NCBI RefSeq assembly: GCF_900107435.1
Contig: NZ_FNPZ01000001.1
Location: 1 to 34,394 of the forward strand
DNA: 34,394 nucleotides
Origin: Herbiconiux ginsengi
GTDB taxonomy: Bacteria > Actinomycetota > Actinomycetes > Actinomycetales > Microbacteriaceae
Direction of reading: 5' to 3'
The notes under the pieces were generated by a model. That model was not told the origin of the DNA. It searched no databases and saw only the letters and a program-made list of their open reading frames with translations. Shown here one piece after another: positions 14,544 through 24,916 of the stretch. The position numbers and the translations under genes were made by a program. Within the stretch, counting starts at the first letter, position 1, and each line of letters starts with the position of its first letter.

Positions 14544-14619
14544 TGGTGGAGCTACGGGGATTCGAACCCCGGACCTTCTCATTGCGAACGAGACGCGCTA
14601 CCAACTGCGCCATAGCCCC
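14544..14619 (-). tRNA. tRNA-Ala (anticodon CGC)
   Basis: A 76-base tRNA with encoded CCA. The acceptor stem is GGGGCTA/TAGCTCC and includes the G3.U70 wobble pair, the identity element of tRNA-Ala. The anticodon loop TTCGCAA gives anticodon CGC, reading GCG. The T-loop GTTCGAAT is standard. TAAACT at 14651-14646, overlapping the stop codon of the acyltransferase gene, is a plausible -10. The downstream hairpin with U-tract terminates it. Confidence 0.97.
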
Positions 14620-18257: not shown

Positions 18258-18328
18258 CGAGCTGCCCCGGAGCCCGCGCACGGGGGGCGCGTGTCTGTTC
18301 ATTCCCACCGCAAACACGGCGGAACGCC

Positions 18329-19831
18329 CTACCTCGCTCGACCGGAGTGCGCCGGGTCGTGGGGGCGGGCCTTGGGGAGGCGGATCCCGTACTGGGCGAG
18401 CTTGCGATAGATGGTGGCCCGGCTCATTCCGAGCTCGGCAGCTGCATCCTCGATGCTCACGCCTTGGCGGGAGAGCACCCGGATCATCTCGTCGCGCTCG
18501 AAGGCCTTGATCCGTGGCAGATGCTCGGCCCGGGCGAGCAGCTCGGGCGGAAGGTGCCGGGTGTCGATCACGTCGGAGCGCAGCGCGGCCTCCTTCACCA
18601 CCTCCGCCAATTCGGCCACGTTGCCCGGCCAGGCGTAGTCGGTGAGCGCCCGCGCCGCCGCCGGAGTGAAGTCCACCCCGCGCCCGCGCGCCCGGCGGGC
18701 GAGGTGGTCGGCCAGAGGCAGGATGTCGACGGCGCGCTCGCGCAGGGGCGGCACCTGGACGACCGTGTCGACCAGGGCCGCGAGAGGGCTCGGGATCGCG
18801 TCGAGGCGCTCCGCGGACAGGGCGATCGCGCCCGCGGCAGGATCGCGGGGCCCGACCAGCAGGCCGTGCAGCCGCTCGGCCGCCGTGGCCGGCAACTCGT
18901 CGGTGTCGCAGATGACGAAGCCGGTGTGCGGGCGGGCGAGCTCGGGGGTCCAGAACGCGAGCCAGGAGTCGACGTCGTGCGGGTCGGGGGCGCGCACCAC
19001 GAGCAGCCGGTCCCCCGGGCTCACCCGTCGCTCGGCCTGAGCGAGCAGCGTGGACCGACCCGATCCGCGCTCGCCCACCGCCGCCACCAGGCGCCCGCCG
19101 CGCAGCGCCTCCGCCGCGTGCGCGACACCGCCGTTCCACGACTCGGAGAGCTCGTCGAGCGATCCCGACCCGGCCTCCTGCCGCAGCGGCTGGATGCGGA
19201 AGACCTGTCCCCGGGCCACGCGGCGGGGCCGGTGCCCGTGCGAGCGGGCCAGCATCAGGTTCGCGGTCGACGTCGCCGCCGTCTGCGCGAGGGCGAGGAG
19301 CAACTCGGAACGCGCATCCGACCAGGTCGTGAAGTTCACGGCCCCTTCGAGCCGGCCGGTGACCGGGTCGAAGATCGGGGCGGCCGCGCAGGTGTAGCCG
19401 CACAGGCTGAGCGAATAGTGGTCGTTCGCCCGCACCAGCGAAGGCACCCGGTCGGCCAAGGCGAGCCCGAGCCCGTTCGTGCCGGCCTCGCGCTCGGAGT
19501 ACGAGAAGCCGGGCGCCAGGTGCACCCGGTCGAGGGCGTGCAGCAACTCGTGGTCGCCACTCAGCCGGTTGAGCACGAGACCGTCGGCGTCGGTCAGCAT
19601 CAGGCCGACCGGCTCGGACGCCAGGGTGCTGTGCAATTCGGCGAGCACCTCACGGCCACATTCGTAGAACAGCGACTGGTCGTCGTAGGTGCCGGAGAAG
19701 ACGGGCTGAGGGGCGTCGAGCGACACACCGTAGTCTTCACTGCGCTGCCACGAAGCGAGCACGCGGGCCGGGATGGCAGCCACCGGCGCGCCGCGCACCT
19801 GGGCGCGAGAGGGTAAGTCGTGAGCGTCCAT
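18329..19831 (-). CDS. AcoR/MimR-type transcriptional activator (GAF - degenerate AAA+ - Fis HTH)
   Basis: A 500-residue regulator. An N-terminal sensor part (60-195) is GAF-like and carries the family stretch FSYSEREAGTNGLGLA (109-124). The centre is a worn AAA+ domain: Walker A reads GERGSGRS (253-260, Lys to Arg) and the sigma54-contacting GAFTGA loop is missing. A Fis-type helix-turn-helix closes it (SIEDAAAELGMSRATIYRKL). Actinobacteria lack sigma54, and this sigma54-independent variant is the MimR type that activates propane/phenol monooxygenase operons in mycobacteria. It diverges from the amidohydrolase operon, its likely target. GAAGG six bases before the ATG at 19831 favours that start over the GTG at 19837. 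The effector is unknown; an alcohol or diol is plausible. Confidence 0.82.
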   Translation of the reverse strand: MDAHDLPSRAQVRGAPVAAIPARVLASWQRSEDYGVSLDAPQPVFSGTYDDQSLFYECGREVLAELHSTLASEPVGLMLTDADGLVLNRLSGDHELLHALDRVHLAPGFSYSEREAGTNGLGLALADRVPSLVRANDHYSLSLCGYTCAAAPIFDPVTGRLEGAVNFTTWSDARSELLLALAQTAATSTANLMLARSHGHRPRRVARGQVFRIQPLRQEAGSGSLDELSESWNGGVAHAAEALRGGRLVAAVGERGSGRSTLLAQAERRVSPGDRLLVVRAPDPHDVDSWLAFWTPELARPHTGFVICDTDELPATAAERLHGLLVGPRDPAAGAIALSAERLDAIPSPLAALVDTVVQVPPLRERAVDILPLADHLARRARGRGVDFTPAAARALTDYAWPGNVAELAEVVKEAALRSDVIDTRHLPPELLARAEHLPRIKAFERDEMIRVLSRQGVSIEDAAAELGMSRATIYRKLAQYGIRLPKARPHDPAHSGRAR

Positions 19832-19897
19832 CAGCACCTTCGCAGTCGTCCGTCGCTGCCAGCATAAACCCGGCGCGGCGCGGTGTCGCCCGGCCCG

Positions 19898-19912
19898 GTC
19901 TCACATTGAGAC
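19898..19912. promoter_or_regulatory. Candidate operator of the MimR-type regulator
   Basis: GTCTCA-CAT-TGAGAC, a perfect 6-bp inverted repeat with a 3-base centre, in the 163-bp gap between the divergent regulator and the amidohydrolase operon. Its centre lies about 52 bases upstream of the transcription start inferred from the -10 at 19945, where an activator would be expected. The link to this regulator is inferred from position. Confidence 0.45.
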
Positions 19913-19944
19913 GGCCCACCCTCCGCCGAGCAGCGTGCGCCGCT

Positions 19945-19950
19945 TAGCGT
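19945..19950 (+). promoter_or_regulatory. Putative -10 (TAGCGT) of the amidohydrolase operon
   Basis: TAGCGT predicts transcription starting near 19957, immediately before a second palindrome, GGAATC-GA-GATTCC (19958-19971), which would form a hairpin at the very 5' end of the message. No -35 is apparent, as for an activated promoter. Confidence 0.35.
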
Positions 19951-19957
19951 GGCGTCA

Positions 19958-19971
19958 GGAATCGAGATTCC
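19958..19971. repeat. Palindrome GGAATC-GA-GATTCC in the operon leader
   Basis: A perfect 6-bp inverted repeat with a two-base centre, 23 bases before the amidohydrolase ATG. It may be a protein-binding site or an mRNA 5' hairpin. Confidence 0.4.
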
Positions 19972-19994
19972 CGACATGCGGCAAAGGAGCAGAC

Positions 19995-21041
19995 ATGTAC
20001 ACGAAAGACGGCGAGAGCTTCTTCATCGTCGACGCCCACGTGGCGTTATGGGATGCGCGGCCCGAGAACCAGCGCAACATCCACGGCAAGCAGTTCATCG
20101 ACTGCTTCTACGACTACCACGCCAACCTCTCCCCCGAGTCGGAGAAGTGGAGCTACGAGGAGTACCTCTACCAGGGCGGCGAGAGGCTGATGAAAGACCT
20201 CTTCACCGACGGTTACGTCGACCACGCCATCTTCCAGCCCGCGAAGCTCGGCGAGTTCTACCACAACGGCTTCGGGCAGACCGAGGAGGCGTGGGCGCTC
20301 ACCCAGGCCAACCCGGGGAAGCTCACCTACAACCACAACTTCGACCCCCGCTTCGGCGAGGCGGGCCTGGATCAGTTGCGCGCCGACGCCGAGCGCTTCG
20401 ACCTCAAGGGCGTGAAGCTCTACACGGCGGAGTGGAACGGCGATTCACGCGGTTGGAAGCTCGACGACCCCTGGGCCTACCGCTATTTCGAGCTCTGCCA
20501 GGAACTCGGCATCCGGAACATCCACGTGCACAAGGGGCCGACCATCCGGCCGCTGGATCGCGACGCCTTCGACGTCGCCGACGTCGACCACGTGGCCACC
20601 GACTTCACCGACCTCAACTTCGTGGTCGAGCACGCCGGCCTCCCGCGCCTCGAAGACTTCTGCTGGATCGCAACCCAGGAGCCGAACGTGCACGGCGGTC
20701 TCGCGGTGGCGATGCCCTTCATCCACACCCGTCCGCGCTACTTCGCGCAGATCATCGGCGAGCTCATCTACTGGATCGGCGAAGACCGCATCCAGTTCTC
20801 CAGCGACTACGCGCTCTGGACTCCGCGCTGGCTGATCGAGGCCTTCGTCGACTTCCAGATCCCGGAGGACATGACCGAGTACGCCCCGATCACGATGGAC
20901 CAGAAGCGCAAGATCCTCGGCCTCAATGCGGCGAAGATGTACGACATCCCGGTGCCCGCCGAACTGCAGCTGCCGAACGCCGACGAGACCGAGACCGGTC
21001 CCCGCGAGCCGGAGCGAGCCGATCTGGCGGCTGCGCGATGA
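19995..21041 (+). CDS. Amidohydrolase (PF04909) of propane-monooxygenase-cluster type, with altered HxH motif
   Basis: A 348-residue TIM-barrel metal hydrolase. Segments such as NIHGKQFIDCFYDYH, DLFTDGYVDHAIFQPA and LGIRNIHVHKGPTIRPLDRD resemble the amidohydrolase encoded beside prm/mim monooxygenase genes. Likely metal residues include H177/H179, H213 (VEHAGLP) and D271 (SSDYALW). The N-terminal metal motif, normally HxH, reads H15-V-A17, so one expected ligand is missing. The codon after this alanine is the very rare TTA. In mim clusters the role of this protein is unclear, and assistance in monooxygenase maturation has been proposed. The ATG at 19995 is preceded by AAAGGAG. It starts the operon and overlaps the next gene by four bases (ATGA). 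Confidence 0.82.
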   Translation: MYTKDGESFFIVDAHVALWDARPENQRNIHGKQFIDCFYDYHANLSPESEKWSYEEYLYQGGERLMKDLFTDGYVDHAIFQPAKLGEFYHNGFGQTEEAWALTQANPGKLTYNHNFDPRFGEAGLDQLRADAERFDLKGVKLYTAEWNGDSRGWKLDDPWAYRYFELCQELGIRNIHVHKGPTIRPLDRDAFDVADVDHVATDFTDLNFVVEHAGLPRLEDFCWIATQEPNVHGGLAVAMPFIHTRPRYFAQIIGELIYWIGEDRIQFSSDYALWTPRWLIEAFVDFQIPEDMTEYAPITMDQKRKILGLNAAKMYDIPVPAELQLPNADETETGPREPERADLAAAR

Positions 21042-21835
21042 CCGCTCTCGCCCCCACGGAGCACGGGGCACTGCTCGCCCTCACCGAGAACGACGTGTTG
21101 CGCGCCCTCGACGCGGTGATCGACCCCGAGCTCGACGAGCCCATCACCGATCTCGGCTTCGTGCGCTCGGTGCGGTTCACGGATGACGGCATCGAGGTGC
21201 ACCTGCGCCTGCCCACCTCGTTCTGCGCACCGAACTTCGCCTACTTGATGGCCTCCGACGCCAAAGACGTGCTCACGGCGCTCCCCGAGGCCGGCACGGT
21301 GGTGGTCGAGCTCGACGACCACCACGACTCCGACATCATCAACCGCGGGCTCGCGGCCGATGCCGGCTACCGGGGCACGTTCCGTCACGAGGCCGAGAGC
21401 GACCTCGACGAATTGCGCGCCGTCTTCCAGCGCAAAGCACACACCGCGGCGATGGAGCGCGCGCTCACCGCATTGCTGCGCGCCCGAGACGACCTCGGCG
21501 AGCAGGATGTCGCGCAGGTGGTGCTCGGCGACCTGCCTGACGACGAGGCGAAGACGGCCCTCCTGCGCCGACGCGAGACGCTCGGGTTGAGCCTCTCCGG
21601 CTCGGCCCCGGTACTGGTCGACGATCGGGGCGACCCCTACCCCGCGGCATCCGCTGCCCTGGCGCTTCGCCGCGCGCGCTCGACCCGCATCTCGATCGAC
21701 GGCAACGCGCACTTCTGCCGCGGTCTGCTCGCCACCCGCTACCCCGGGGCGGAGGCGGATCAGGCGCCCCGGGCCGACGAGAACTTCTTCCCCACATCCT
21801 CCCTCCTCCGAAATACACGAAAGAGTGTCGCATGA
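21038..21835 (+). CDS. MIP18/DUF59-family protein (iron-sulfur assembly type) with C-terminal extension
   Basis: A 265-residue protein. Residues 15-105 form a MIP18/DUF59 domain: VLRALDAVIDPELDEPITDLGF, then RLPTSFCAPNFAYLM carrying the conserved cysteine. Single-domain relatives act in Fe-S cluster delivery. About 150 further residues (helical, Arg/Ala/Leu-rich, ending in FFPTSSLLRNTRKSVA) match no domain I recognise. A DUF59 protein of this kind follows the amidohydrolase gene in propane-monooxygenase clusters, where it may help load the di-iron centre. Here no di-iron oxygenase is in sight. The start overlaps the amidohydrolase stop and its own stop overlaps the ADH start (both ATGA), so the three genes are tightly coupled. 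Confidence 0.8.
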   Translation: MTALAPTEHGALLALTENDVLRALDAVIDPELDEPITDLGFVRSVRFTDDGIEVHLRLPTSFCAPNFAYLMASDAKDVLTALPEAGTVVVELDDHHDSDIINRGLAADAGYRGTFRHEAESDLDELRAVFQRKAHTAAMERALTALLRARDDLGEQDVAQVVLGDLPDDEAKTALLRRRETLGLSLSGSAPVLVDDRGDPYPAASAALALRRARSTRISIDGNAHFCRGLLATRYPGAEADQAPRADENFFPTSSLLRNTRKSVA

Positions 21836-22872
21836 GCACCATGAGAGCCGTTCAGGTCGTCGGATACCACCGGCCGCTGCAGTTGACCGAGATCCCCCGG
21901 CCCGAGATCACCGGCCCCTTCGACGTCATCGTGCGGATCGGCGGAGCCGGAGTCTGCCGCACCGACCTCCACATCCTCGAAGGGCAGTGGGAGCAGAAGT
22001 CGGGCGTCGCGCTGCCCTACACGATCGGGCATGAGAACGCCGGCTGGGTGGATGCCATCGGCAGCGCCGTCACGAACGTGGCGGTGGGCGACAAGGTGAT
22101 CGTGCATCCGCTCATCACCTGCGGACTGTGCCGCGCCTGCCGTTCGGGCGACGACGTGCACTGCACCCAGAGCGCGTTCCCCGGCATCAACACCCATGGC
22201 GGGTACGCGGAGTTTCTGAAGACCAGTGCCCGCAGCGTGGTTCGCATCGCCGACAGCCTCGAACCGGCGGATGTCGCAGCCCTCGCCGATGCCGGCCTCA
22301 CCGCCTACCACGCCGCAGCGAAAGCCGCGCGAAAGCTCCGTCCGGCCGACCGCTGCGTCGTCATCGGAGCCGGCGGTCTCGGACACATCGGCATCCAGGT
22401 GCTGAAGGCGCTCACCGCCTCCGAGCTGATCGTGGTCGACCGCAACCCGGCCGCACTGGAGCTCGCCGCCTCCCTCGGCGCCGATCACACCGTGCCGGCC
22501 TCCACCGACGGCTCGCACGTGACCCGGGTGCTGGAGCTCACCGACGGCTTCGGCGCCGAGGCGGTGATCGACTTCGTCGGCGAAGGGGGCTCGACCTCCG
22601 AGGGGGTGCAGATGCTCCGGCAGGCCGGCGACTTCTTCGTGGTGGGCTACGGCGAGAACATCGACATCCCGACGATCGACATCATCTCGAACGAGATCAA
22701 CATCATCGGCAACCTCGTGGGCAGCTACGACGACCTCACCGAACTGATGGTGCTCGCCGCGCGGGGACTCGTGAAACTGCACACCGCGACCTACGCGCTC
22801 GACGACTTCCAGCACGCCATCGACGACCTCGACGCCGGGCGTGTGCGCGGCCGCGCCATCCTCGTTCCGTGA
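21832..22872 (+). CDS. Zinc-dependent NAD-type alcohol dehydrogenase
   Basis: A 346-residue medium-chain dehydrogenase. Catalytic zinc ligands are C42 (GVCRTDLH), H67-E68 (GHENAG) and probably D153 (ADAGLTAYH). The structural zinc site C97-x2-C100-x2-C103-x7-C111 is complete. The nucleotide motif is GAGGLG (179-184), and an acidic residue after the second strand (IVVDRN) points to NAD. Relatives in propane-monooxygenase clusters oxidise short alcohols such as 1- or 2-propanol. In this operon a diol or glycerol is also possible, since glycerol dehydrogenase and a glycerol facilitator follow. The start overlaps the DUF59 stop. A strong intercistronic hairpin separates it from the next gene. Confidence 0.88.
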   Translation: MSTMRAVQVVGYHRPLQLTEIPRPEITGPFDVIVRIGGAGVCRTDLHILEGQWEQKSGVALPYTIGHENAGWVDAIGSAVTNVAVGDKVIVHPLITCGLCRACRSGDDVHCTQSAFPGINTHGGYAEFLKTSARSVVRIADSLEPADVAALADAGLTAYHAAAKAARKLRPADRCVVIGAGGLGHIGIQVLKALTASELIVVDRNPAALELAASLGADHTVPASTDGSHVTRVLELTDGFGAEAVIDFVGEGGSTSEGVQMLRQAGDFFVVGYGENIDIPTIDIISNEINIIGNLVGSYDDLTELMVLAARGLVKLHTATYALDDFQHAIDDLDAGRVRGRAILVP

Positions 22873-22882
22873 CATCCGCCCC

Positions 22883-22905
22883 GGTCTCCGCCGTCGGCGG
22901 AGACC
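22883..22905. repeat. Intercistronic hairpin between ADH and glycerol dehydrogenase genes
   Basis: A perfect 10-bp stem, GGTCTCCGCC / GGCGGAGACC, with a GTC loop, ten bases after the ADH stop. There is no U-tract, so it may be a processing or stability element or partial attenuator. Its outer arms GGTCTC/GAGACC echo the GTCTCA/TGAGAC operator upstream of the operon, so a second binding site is also possible. Confidence 0.55.
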
Positions 22906-22971
22906 AGGGCGCCACCTCCGTTCCACCAACGGCCACCCGGCCACCTTCGACAACGACGTCAGGAGTACACC

Positions 22972-24120
22972 ATGCCCACTTCCCTTCCCATCCGCACCGT
23001 CATCAGCCCCGGCCGCTACGTGCAGGGTCCGGGTGCCATCACTCGTCTCGGCGAGTTCCTCGCACCGATCGGATCCAAGCCCCTCATCGTCGCCGACGAC
23101 GTCGTCTGGGGCTTCGTCGGCCACGACGTCGAGGCCTCGCTGACGGCAGCCGGCCTGCCCGTGCGCCGCGAGAAGTTCAACGGCATCCCCAGCGCCGGTG
23201 AGATCGATCGGCTCGTCGCCGTCATCGCCGACGCGAACGCCGACGTCGTCGTGGCCGTCGGCGGAGGCAGCACGATCGATGCCGTCAAATCGTCGGGCTT
23301 CCTCGCCGGAATCCGATGGGTCACGGTGCCATCCGTGGCGTCGACCGATGCCCCCACCTCTGCACTCGCGGTGATCTACACGGAGGACGGCGCCTTCGAG
23401 GAATACCGTTTCTTCCCGCGCAATCCCGACCTCGTGCTCGTCGACTCGCAGCTCGTCGCCAACGCACCGGCGGCGTTCCTCGCAGCGGGAGTCGGCGACG
23501 CCCTGGCCACCTGGCTCGAGGCGCGCGCCACGTCACGTTCGAACTCGAACACCATGGCCGGTGGCCTGCCCACCGAAACCGGCACCGCGCTCGCGCGCCT
23601 GAGCTGGGACGTGCTCTGGGAGAACGCGCTTCCCGCGCTCGACGCGGTGCGGGATCATGTCGTGACACCCGCTGTCGAGAAGGTGATCGAGGCCAACACC
23701 CTGCTGTCCGGCCTCGGCTTCGAATCGGGCGGACTCGCAGCCGCCCATGCCATCCACAACGGGCTCACCGCGGCGCCCCAGACCCACGGACTCGCCCACG
23801 GGCAGAAGGTGAACATCGGATCGATCACGCAGCTCGTGCTCGAAGGAGCTCCGACCGCCGACATCCGCGACTTCATCGAGTTCACCACCCGCGTCGGCCT
23901 GCCCACCACCCTCACCGAGATCGGACTCGACGCCGACTCGGCCGAGCTCGACCAGGTCGCCGAACTCGCCACCGTGCCCGGAGAGACCATCCACGCCATG
24001 CCGTTCGAGGTGCGCCCGGTCGAGGTCGTCGCAGCGCTCAAGTCGATCGAGCGTCTCGCCCGGCGGGTTCGCACCGAAGCGAAGCTGCCCGAGCCCGTCG
24101 CCTACGTGGCCCACCACTGA
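22972..24120 (+). CDS. gldA: Glycerol dehydrogenase (iron-type ADH superfamily)
   Basis: A 382-residue enzyme of the GldA group, converting glycerol (or 1,2-propanediol) to dihydroxyacetone (or acetol) with NAD. The nucleotide motif GGGS is at 97-100, SVASTDAPTSALAVIY at 121-136 is a GldA hallmark, and the metal ligands are D176, H259 and H276. CAGGAG precedes the ATG by eight bases. It lies 99 bases after the ADH gene and 23 before the glycerol facilitator gene, on the same strand. This suggests that the operon handles a small polyol. No dihydroxyacetone kinase is in the window. Confidence 0.88.
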   Translation: MPTSLPIRTVISPGRYVQGPGAITRLGEFLAPIGSKPLIVADDVVWGFVGHDVEASLTAAGLPVRREKFNGIPSAGEIDRLVAVIADANADVVVAVGGGSTIDAVKSSGFLAGIRWVTVPSVASTDAPTSALAVIYTEDGAFEEYRFFPRNPDLVLVDSQLVANAPAAFLAAGVGDALATWLEARATSRSNSNTMAGGLPTETGTALARLSWDVLWENALPALDAVRDHVVTPAVEKVIEANTLLSGLGFESGGLAAAHAIHNGLTAAPQTHGLAHGQKVNIGSITQLVLEGAPTADIRDFIEFTTRVGLPTTLTEIGLDADSAELDQVAELATVPGETIHAMPFEVRPVEVVAALKSIERLARRVRTEAKLPEPVAYVAHH

Positions 24121-24143
24121 CGCCGGCCACGGGAATCCGATCC

Positions 24144-24902
24144 ATGGACACATTGGCAGGCGTCTTCGTCTCGGAGGTCGTCGGCACGGCGATCCTCATC
24201 CTTCTCGGCTGCGGCGTGGTCGCCAACGTCGCACTCGCCAAGACCAAAGGCAACGGCGGCGGCTTCCTGCTCGTCAACTTCGGCTGGGGCCTGGCCGTCT
24301 TCGCGGGCGTGATCGTGGCCTACCGCTCGGGGGCCCAGCTGAATCCGGCCGTCACCCTCGGCATCGTCTCGAGCGGCGCGACCGAGTTCGTTCCGGGCGT
24401 GCCGGTGAGCCCGCTCTCGATCTCCGTCTACATCACCGCCCAGATGATCGGTGCGATGATCGGCGCGTTCCTGGCCTGGCTCGCCTACCGACAGCACTTC
24501 GACGCCGAGCCGGAACCGGCGAACAAGCTCGGGGTCTTCTCCACCGGTCCGGCGATCCGCAGCTACGGCTGGAACCTCGTCACCGAGATCATCGCCACCT
24601 TCGTGCTGGTGTTCGTGGTGATCGGCTTCGGGCGCAACGGCGACGCGTCGGGGCTGGCGGCACTCGGCGCGCTCCCCGTGGCGCTGCTCGTGATCGGGAT
24701 CGGCGCCTCCCTCGGTGGACCGACCGGGTACGCCATCAACCCCGCTCGAGACCTCGGTCCCCGCATCATCCACGCTCTCGTGCCGATCAAGGGCAAGGGT
24801 ACGTCGGATTGGTCCTACTCCTGGGTACCGATCGTCGGCCCGCTGATCGGCGGCATCATCGCCGGCTGGTCGTCGACGATTCTGCTCCCGATCCTCTCCT
24901 GA
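24144..24902 (+). CDS. glpF: Glycerol facilitator (aquaporin family, GlpF type)
   Basis: A 252-residue channel with six transmembrane segments and the two half-helix NPA motifs: QLNPAVTLG (NPA 67-69) and INPARDLGPR (199-208). Aspartate directly after NPAR is the feature distinguishing glyceroporins from strict water channels, so glycerol, diols or similar neutral solutes are likely cargo. It is the last gene of the operon after gldA, and fits uptake of the polyol that the two dehydrogenases oxidise. The ribosome-binding site is poor (GGGAA ten bases upstream). Its stop lies only 14 bases from the convergent rimJ-like gene, with no visible terminator between. Confidence 0.85.
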   Translation: MDTLAGVFVSEVVGTAILILLGCGVVANVALAKTKGNGGGFLLVNFGWGLAVFAGVIVAYRSGAQLNPAVTLGIVSSGATEFVPGVPVSPLSISVYITAQMIGAMIGAFLAWLAYRQHFDAEPEPANKLGVFSTGPAIRSYGWNLVTEIIATFVLVFVVIGFGRNGDASGLAALGALPVALLVIGIGASLGGPTGYAINPARDLGPRIIHALVPIKGKGTSDWSYSWVPIVGPLIGGIIAGWSSTILLPILS

Positions 24903-24916
24903 GAGCAGAACATCCT

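Follow-up and report, generated by a model that had tools for sequence, protein, structure and literature searches.

We have found that genes for a divergent activator, an amidohydrolase, a DUF59 protein and an alcohol dehydrogenase form a unit that, as judged from sequence comparisons, is conserved over many actinobacterial genera, has a divergent promoter with a conserved operator, and usually stands without a monooxygenase. In the same comparisons the amidohydrolase of this lineage is distinct from that of nearly all mim/prm monooxygenase clusters. In Herbiconiux ginsengi the unit is accompanied by gldA and a channel gene in a block that is absent from the same site in congeners. We consider it about evenly balanced whether this discrete block is a self-contained catabolic operon that works without a monooxygenase on a small vicinal diol or hydroxyketone.

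The cassette and its divergent promoter

The window analysed, the whole stretch of 34,394 nucleotides, contains on the minus strand a gene for a GAF, degenerate AAA and Fis-type HTH activator (REG; 18329..19837). Divergent from it, on the plus strand, are genes for an amidohydrolase-2 protein (AMI; 19995..21041; PF04909, 165.8 bits), a DUF59/MIP18-domain protein (21038..21835; PF01883 at residues 18-88), an Adh1-like medium-chain zinc alcohol dehydrogenase (ADH; 21832..22872; PF08240 and PF00107), an iron-type glycerol dehydrogenase (gldA; 22972..24120; NF006941) and an aquaglyceroporin-type MIP channel (24144..24902; PF00230). These coordinates and the Pfam and NCBIfam matches agree with the gene set and order given in a first-pass annotation, and the ATGA overlaps that it described are present at both junctions, AMI/DUF59 (21038-21041) and DUF59/ADH (21832-21835). 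Between ADH and gldA lie 99 nt that include a strong hairpin (perfect, 10 bp; 22883..22905, plus strand), and the channel gene starts 23 nt past the gldA stop. Four Microbacteriaceae relatives have a shorter gap in which no such hairpin is seen; the one here may uncouple gldA and the channel gene from the regulated operon. Three congeners keep both flanking genes without the block at 18295..24915; by this comparison the block was gained in H. ginsengi, or lost in the congeners, as a unit, and it has no monooxygenase trace.

Our comparison set was the best 80 of 438 DUF59-matched loci, drawn from 78 genomes. AMI-DUF59-ADH is carried by all 80, a REG homologue above 150 bits by 72, and REG is divergent and adjacent in 70. 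A Mim/Prm-type alpha subunit was not detected in 64 of the 78 genomes behind these best 80 of 438 loci (none in 60, weaker homologues only in 4), the other 14 having a full one. A class-wide sample of 394 genomes gave 30 with AMI, of which 6 have a full alpha subunit and a seventh has alpha pieces.

A Pfam profile search of REG returned PF01590 (GAF), AAA_lid_14 and HTH_8 with no match to PF00158 (Sigma54_activat). The string GAFTGA, a motif of the AAA domain of sigma-54 activators, is not found in REG, which on that count does not class with them. The conserved promoter element, GTCTCA-CAT-TGAGAC at 19898..19912, came out of this analysis and not from the literature: in 71 regulator-linked promoters, GTCTCA-N3-TGAGAC is exact in 57, present with at most one mismatch in 68 and with at most two in all 71, and seven other half-site spacings gave no match within one mismatch in the same promoters. 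The one exact match in the H. ginsengi genome is that in the cassette promoter; five one-mismatch places elsewhere were inspected roughly and are not counted as targets. In 13 of 16 monooxygenase regions the operator precedes the alpha gene as well, and it is therefore indicative of the regulator family and not of a substrate. In the literature, a paper on SCO7424 concerns a MarR regulator and has no bearing here, and one on isobutylene held nothing relevant.

An amidohydrolase with an altered metal motif

Amidohydrolases carry an HxH metal motif on strand 1. AMI matches the PF04909 profile and has the fold of the amidohydrolase superfamily, and its predicted structure matches amidohydrolase-2 decarboxylases, but its strand 1 reads DAHVA in place of HxH, residues 15 and 17 being H and A. 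HxA is found in 81 of 81 AMIs of the cassette lineage, which retain H15, H177, H179, H213 and D271, whereas 21 of 23 monooxygenase-linked AMIs read HxH. Lineage AMIs combine A17, A83 and S269, where most monooxygenase-linked AMIs have H, T and G. HxA nevertheless does not mark monooxygenase-free cassettes cleanly, because two monooxygenase-linked AMIs (L124, L146) also read HxA and have A14, A17, L18, P82, A83 and S269, the whole set in common with the lineage; a Peribacillus AMI (L144) has A17 alone. A third monooxygenase-free lineage (L170-L175) reads HxH and has the gene order ADH-AMI-DUF59, and no alpha subunit was found in its six genomes. In L170, near a contig end, DUF59 was not seen.

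A tree of 99 AMIs separates 18 monooxygenase-linked rows from the 81 others by a 97/99 branch, which suggested that the lineage had escaped once from a monooxygenase cluster. This was not upheld after outgroups were added: in a tree with outgroups and fewer rows the lineage is not recovered as one clade, two members (L036, L075) splitting off at an unresolved fork, so that the lineage may not be a unit and may either have escaped from monooxygenase clusters or have been recruited by them. Nor is a monooxygenase-free role for AMI-DUF59 obviously new, since within the stretches fetched such pairs also stand away from monooxygenase genes in two haloarchaea, Thermomicrobium, Peribacillus and a Rhizobium.

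Beyond its PF01883 domain the DUF59 protein continues for about 165 aa as a helical C-terminal extension. It matches the NCBIfam PaaD and SUF models only far below cut-off, and in a structure search its relevant matches cover the DUF59 part only, with none at E <= 0.001. The closest solved structure to ADH is 1h2b, and ADH is 74-77% identical to ADHs of closer monooxygenase clusters and 63-65% to those of the remaining ones.

Candidate substrates and competing functions

The oxidation of small vicinal diols or hydroxyketones is our best guess for the role of the cassette, because GldA or an acetoin reductase recurs near it in the genomes compared. Among the best 80 of 438 loci, 9 have GldA in their flanks, spread over several genera and in varying orientation (one match, L089, being partial), and 9 have an acetoin-reductase-type SDR there, both counts being uncorrected for background; the two of these nine SDRs that were scanned both score above the TIGR02415 cut-off. 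Against this reading, most of these loci are flanked by neither GldA nor acetoin reductase. GldA is in 0 of 16 monooxygenase regions, a sample too small for a contrast. In H. ginsengi itself, gldA belongs to the NF006941 subfamily (496 bits against a cut-off of 336), falls short of the equivalogs NF047954 (412.6 against 700) and NF053832 (440.3 against 550), and matches solved GldA homologues down to E 3.3e-105. The channel is closer to aquaglyceroporins, its best solved matches, than to water channels, and is slightly under the TIGR00861 cut-off (158.1 against 171.25); of the Microbacteriaceae cassettes compared, this is the only one in which a channel gene was seen next to gldA.

In the mechanism we propose, REG would sense a small intermediate, either a carbonyl or an alcohol, and activate the promoter through GTCTCA-N3-TGAGAC. 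The substrate oxidised by ADH, and in H. ginsengi also by GldA fed through the channel, would be a small vicinal diol or hydroxyketone, of the glycerol/dihydroxyacetone, 1,2-propanediol/acetol or 2,3-butanediol/acetoin class. AMI, with its altered metal site, may then act on the resulting carbonyl compound, and the DUF59 protein probably assists AMI maturation. In favour of this reading, PMC7176365 places the mim cluster in acetone-to-acetol conversion and reports Adh1 and the amidohydrolase as abundant; a second Adh1-like protein (WP_018331648.1) is induced in that study. Operons for glycerol or acetoin/2,3-butanediol have AcoR/DhaR-type regulators, and the operon here resembles them in its GldA, channel and AcoR/DhaR-like regulator and, in some relatives, its acetoin reductase. 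Unlike them it has no dihydroxyacetone kinase gene; there are three Dak1 matches in the genome, and these proteins could take up dihydroxyacetone. To our knowledge AMI and DUF59 have no place in either pathway. Of the two alternatives in the first-pass annotation, a putative small-polyol operon without a monooxygenase is the one that fits best.

We raise more tentatively the possibility that, in this widespread actinobacterial operon, AMI with its rebuilt metal site and its dedicated DUF59 protein carry out a new reaction whose substrates are C3-C4 hydroxyketones or dicarbonyls, and that this is the orphan amidohydrolase step behind propane/acetone monooxygenases. The portions of the literature consulted assign no function to the amidohydrolase and DUF59 genes found in propane/acetone monooxygenase clusters, and no description of the free-standing operon was found in the papers searched. 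A lineage that has AMI-DUF59 and ADH without a monooxygenase makes the AMI/DUF59 role separable from oxygenase maturation, and a small operon with a single operator is a tractable system for the substrate and reaction of these proteins.

It is possible, if on balance unlikely, that the operon acts, independently of a monooxygenase, on 2-propanol, acetone or a similar simple secondary alcohol or ketone, gldA and the channel gene being mere passengers in the block. The ADH is Adh1-like, and sections of PMC6849523 report that the cluster ADH is required for propane metabolism; the flanks of most relatives have neither gldA nor a channel, and the hairpin lies between ADH and gldA. Against this, GldA or acetoin reductase occurs close to the cassette at various positions and in several genera, and the H. 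ginsengi genome has no mim-type enzyme to attack acetone. Improbable in our view is an operon that detoxifies alpha-dicarbonyls (methylglyoxal, diacetyl) and is not a growth pathway: non-actinobacterial AMI-DUF59 pairs adjoin genes annotated DJ-1/PfpI (Peribacillus) and gloA (Rhizobium), but these neighbours rest on annotation in one record each, and the arrangement of activator and alcohol dehydrogenase looks catabolic.

Relation to monooxygenase clusters

The cassette shares with mim/prm (group 5 soluble di-iron monooxygenase) clusters the AMI-DUF59-ADH order, a GAF/Fis-type regulator and the operator sequence. It differs from them in having neither the four monooxygenase subunits nor a dedicated GroEL, in the HxA of AMI and in its other neighbours. 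What we say of MimG, mim and prm draws on parts of PMC6849523, PMC7176365, PMC8394569, PMC8784404 and PMC9213486. The first-pass annotation saw no monooxygenase subunit or GroEL with the cassette, and tblastn likewise found no subunit and no monooxygenase-type GroEL in the window. Of the mim/prm and MimG homologues that it suggested seeking elsewhere in the genome, an alpha subunit and a monooxygenase-type GroEL did not emerge: four genome-wide searches for a Mim/Prm-type alpha subunit (the other three subunits being sought in the window) found none in an assembly of 12 contigs that is 99.85% complete, two of the four having matches in other genomes and two being without a positive control. 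The sole GroEL (C2:67923-69518), 49% identical to a monooxygenase-linked GroEL, is not of that type.

We therefore reject for this genome the other alternative of the first-pass annotation, in which the partner of the cassette is a di-iron monooxygenase with genes at another locus: neither an alpha subunit nor a GroEL of the monooxygenase type was found, and there is one exact operator. Such an arrangement has parallels: two relatives have clusters without their own trio and the cassette lineage alongside (L126/L054, L139/L041), and Mycobacterium sp. AT1, in the parts of PMC6849523 drawn on, has its amidohydrolase, a gene of unknown function and ADH apart from its monooxygenase, but AT1 does have the enzyme, and none was found in H. 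ginsengi. That an ordinary prm/mim cluster recently lost its monooxygenase genes at this locus is rejected with equal firmness, for although a decayed cluster (L001) retains only part of alpha ahead of the trio and GroEL, and only the last 52 alpha residues were found in L189, AMI and REG belong to a lineage that in many families has no accompanying monooxygenase, the window holds no monooxygenase remnant, and three congeners have an empty site.

The premise that a monooxygenase is missing falls away: most genomes of the lineage are without one, 12 of 16 fetched monooxygenase clusters have their own separate paralogous trio, and the empty site in three relatives is free of remnants. AMI-DUF59-ADH genes in metagenomes are accordingly not evidence for alkane oxidation. 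Other genes that recur near the cassette among the best 80 of 438 loci encode an ABM-domain protein (33 of 80), whose proposed link to LsrG was dropped because the match, at 26.4 bits, is far short of the cut-off (135), and DUF1097 (20 of 80).

Layout of the cassette and search for a monooxygenase

Gene calls and profile matches place the six genes where the first-pass annotation had put them: a GAF/Fis-type regulator gene (18329-19837, reverse strand) is divergent from genes for an amidohydrolase (AMI, 19995-21041), a DUF59 protein (21038-21835) and a zinc alcohol dehydrogenase (ADH, 21832-22872), which are followed by gldA (22972-24120) and a MIP channel gene (24144-24902). The ATGA overlaps claimed for the AMI/DUF59 and DUF59/ADH junctions are present; gldA stands off ADH by a 99-nt gap. 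This gap holds a 10-bp perfect hairpin (22883-22905), which is not visible in the corresponding 33-66 nt gaps of four Microbacteriaceae relatives. A tRNA-Ala gene (CGC anticodon) lies at 14544-14619.

As first reported, the window has no tblastn match to a monooxygenase subunit or a monooxygenase-type GroEL. That annotation had proposed searching the rest of the genome for monooxygenase and mimG homologues. Genome-wide, the monooxygenase search covered the alpha subunit of the Mim/Prm-type (propane/acetone) di-iron enzyme. Neither PF02332 nor a four-row alpha alignment, both used without a positive control, matched in the H. ginsengi genome, and nor did a six-row alignment, which elsewhere recovered full-score alphas as well as weak relatives scoring as low as about 69-77 bits. 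The six-row model includes two sequences labelled W01 and W02 and one from genome G235; none of the remaining hits belongs to it. One GroEL was detected, 49% identical to a monooxygenase-linked GroEL.

We find that the cassette is usually free of monooxygenase genes. A DUF59 protein scan of genome contigs gave 438 relatives, and because only the best 80 were kept the set is biased to close relatives. AMI lies upstream and ADH downstream of DUF59 in all of these best 80 loci; a regulator homologue exceeds 150 bits in 72, being divergent and adjacent in 70, and monooxygenase genes flank two (L041 and L054). When the 78 distinct genomes behind these loci were searched whole (that of L040 left out; L047 and L077 sharing one), 14 had a full alpha, fragmented in one of them (G252), four had weak homologues only and 60 had none. 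AMI was present (E <= 1e-60) in 30 genomes of a class-wide draw of 394 that included our own; six of the 30 have a full alpha, one (G462) a weak one and 21 none, while G373 has the alpha in pieces, one of which adjoins its AMI where a contig ends, and G649 has just the final 52 residues. Published accounts place the trio of AMI, DUF59 and ADH, whole or in part, inside monooxygenase clusters and once apart from one; the literature searched, which mostly excluded subscription papers, yielded no description of a free-standing operon.

Some loci are incomplete. L188 (6083-7009, genome G376), where an AMI of the window's lineage has three internal stop codons and sits beside a regulator match, with DUF59 and ADH not found at the locus, is a decayed cassette. 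In L189 (3279-3431, G649) the alpha of a monooxygenase cluster adjoining a cassette of the window's lineage was found as its last 52 residues only. Very small actinobacterial genomes (1.3 Mb) belonging to one genus (L178-L180) retain an AMI homologue that is about 40% identical and has the motif HTG; the remaining cassette genes gave no match near it.

Relationship to monooxygenase-linked trios

Thirteen of the 14 full-alpha genomes, all but G252, supplied 16 monooxygenase regions for comparison. Twelve contain their own AMI, DUF59 and ADH together with GroEL, and L124 lacks ADH; a trio of their own is missing from L126, L138 and L139, and cassettes of the window's lineage adjoin L126 and L139. 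Judged by sequence, the monooxygenase-linked trios and those of the window's lineage appear to be two paralogous sets. A first tree was built from 99 of the 104 AMIs gathered, the five others being duplicates or a fragment; in it the 18 monooxygenase-linked AMIs form one side of a 97/99 branch. A second tree, with ten records and two distant outgroups added and 36 of the 81 lineage rows retained, recovers neither the lineage as one clade nor a direction between it and the monooxygenase clusters: L036 and L075 separate from the rest at an unresolved fork, next to the closest monooxygenase clade. AMI-DUF59 pairs also occur in Thermomicrobium, two haloarchaea, Peribacillus and Rhizobium N324, with no monooxygenase subunit found by tblastn in the fetched stretches around these five; the haloarchaeal loci (L142, L143) are on plasmids. 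A Natronorubrum AMI that is 29% identical adjoins a gene annotated as an iron-sulfur cluster assembly protein, which does not match the DUF59 query. On a plasmid of Rhodococcus aetherivorans BW2 (L001, 7592-9061), an incomplete alpha absent from the gene table runs into a zinc dehydrogenase frame; the three other subunits gave no match, and the trio and GroEL remain.

The first metal motif is HxA in all 81 lineage AMI rows and HxH in 21 of 23 monooxygenase-linked rows, H15, H177, H179, H213 and D271 being invariant across both. A17, A83 and S269 co-occur, also in the two HxA exceptions, L124 (G248) and L146 (Rhodococcus sp. JS3073). The predicted AMI structure (pLDDT 84.6) matches amidohydrolase-2 folds (3irs, carboxyvanillate and dihydroxybenzoate decarboxylases, LigJ; TM-scores about 0.5-0.6 on the query). 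An Ala probably occupies the same position of the motif in 2,3-dihydroxybenzoate decarboxylase as well; a literature check found nothing on this. The DUF59 model has no structural match at E 0.001; its top, weaker matches are CIAO2B and DUF59 domains, over the N-terminal part only.

A putative operator and the neighbouring genes

Among 71 divergent promoters (the 70 loci and the window), 57 hold an exact GTCTCA-N3-TGAGAC, 68 hold it with at most one mismatch and all 71 with at most two; spacings of 0-2 or 4-7 gave none at up to one mismatch. That one-mismatch level is reached by 0.01% of mononucleotide shuffles and by 0.5% of pieces drawn at random from these loci; some of the pieces may overlap genuine sites. 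The putative operator lies about 86-139 nt upstream of AMI, and 19898-19912 is its sole exact occurrence in the H. ginsengi genome. In 13 of the 16 monooxygenase regions the same motif precedes the alpha gene by no more than about 500 nt; in L125 and L127 it lies upstream beyond the neighbouring regulator, and in L126 it was not found.

By raw counts in the fetched stretches, the flanks of the best 80 of 438 loci hold an ABM-domain protein in 33, DUF1097 in 20, and GldA and an acetoin-reductase-type SDR in nine each. In six of its nine loci GldA immediately follows ADH, one of these matches being partial, and in the other three it sits at another position. The SDR varies in place: it may follow ADH, separate the regulator from AMI or lie on the far side of the regulator; both of the two SDRs that were profile-scanned exceed the TIGR02415 cut-off. 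In monooxygenase clusters on Aminobacter and Bradyrhizobium plasmids (L003, L149), an aquaporin/MIP-family channel gene immediately follows GroEL. Published proteomics assigned the mim cluster to the conversion of acetone to acetol and showed Adh1 and the amidohydrolase to be abundant (PMC7176365). Together, the neighbouring genes, these channels and the mim proteomics favour small vicinal diols and hydroxyketones as the operon's substrates.

The block and its empty site

Within the genus, a DUF59 search located the cassette in five out of 16 genomes, this one included. In the window it is part of a discrete block: in three congeners lacking it (G199, G201, G207) the two flanking genes adjoin each other, and homology between G199 and the window ends at 18294 and restarts at 24916, with 244 G199 bases between that are unlike the block. 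No target duplication or insertion element was identified at the block. The flanking genes were not found around the cassette in G208, G210, L017 or L020, and because cassette sites are scattered we favour, without certainty, gain of the block in this genome over loss in its congeners. The closest AMI, at 97%, belongs to another genus (G192).
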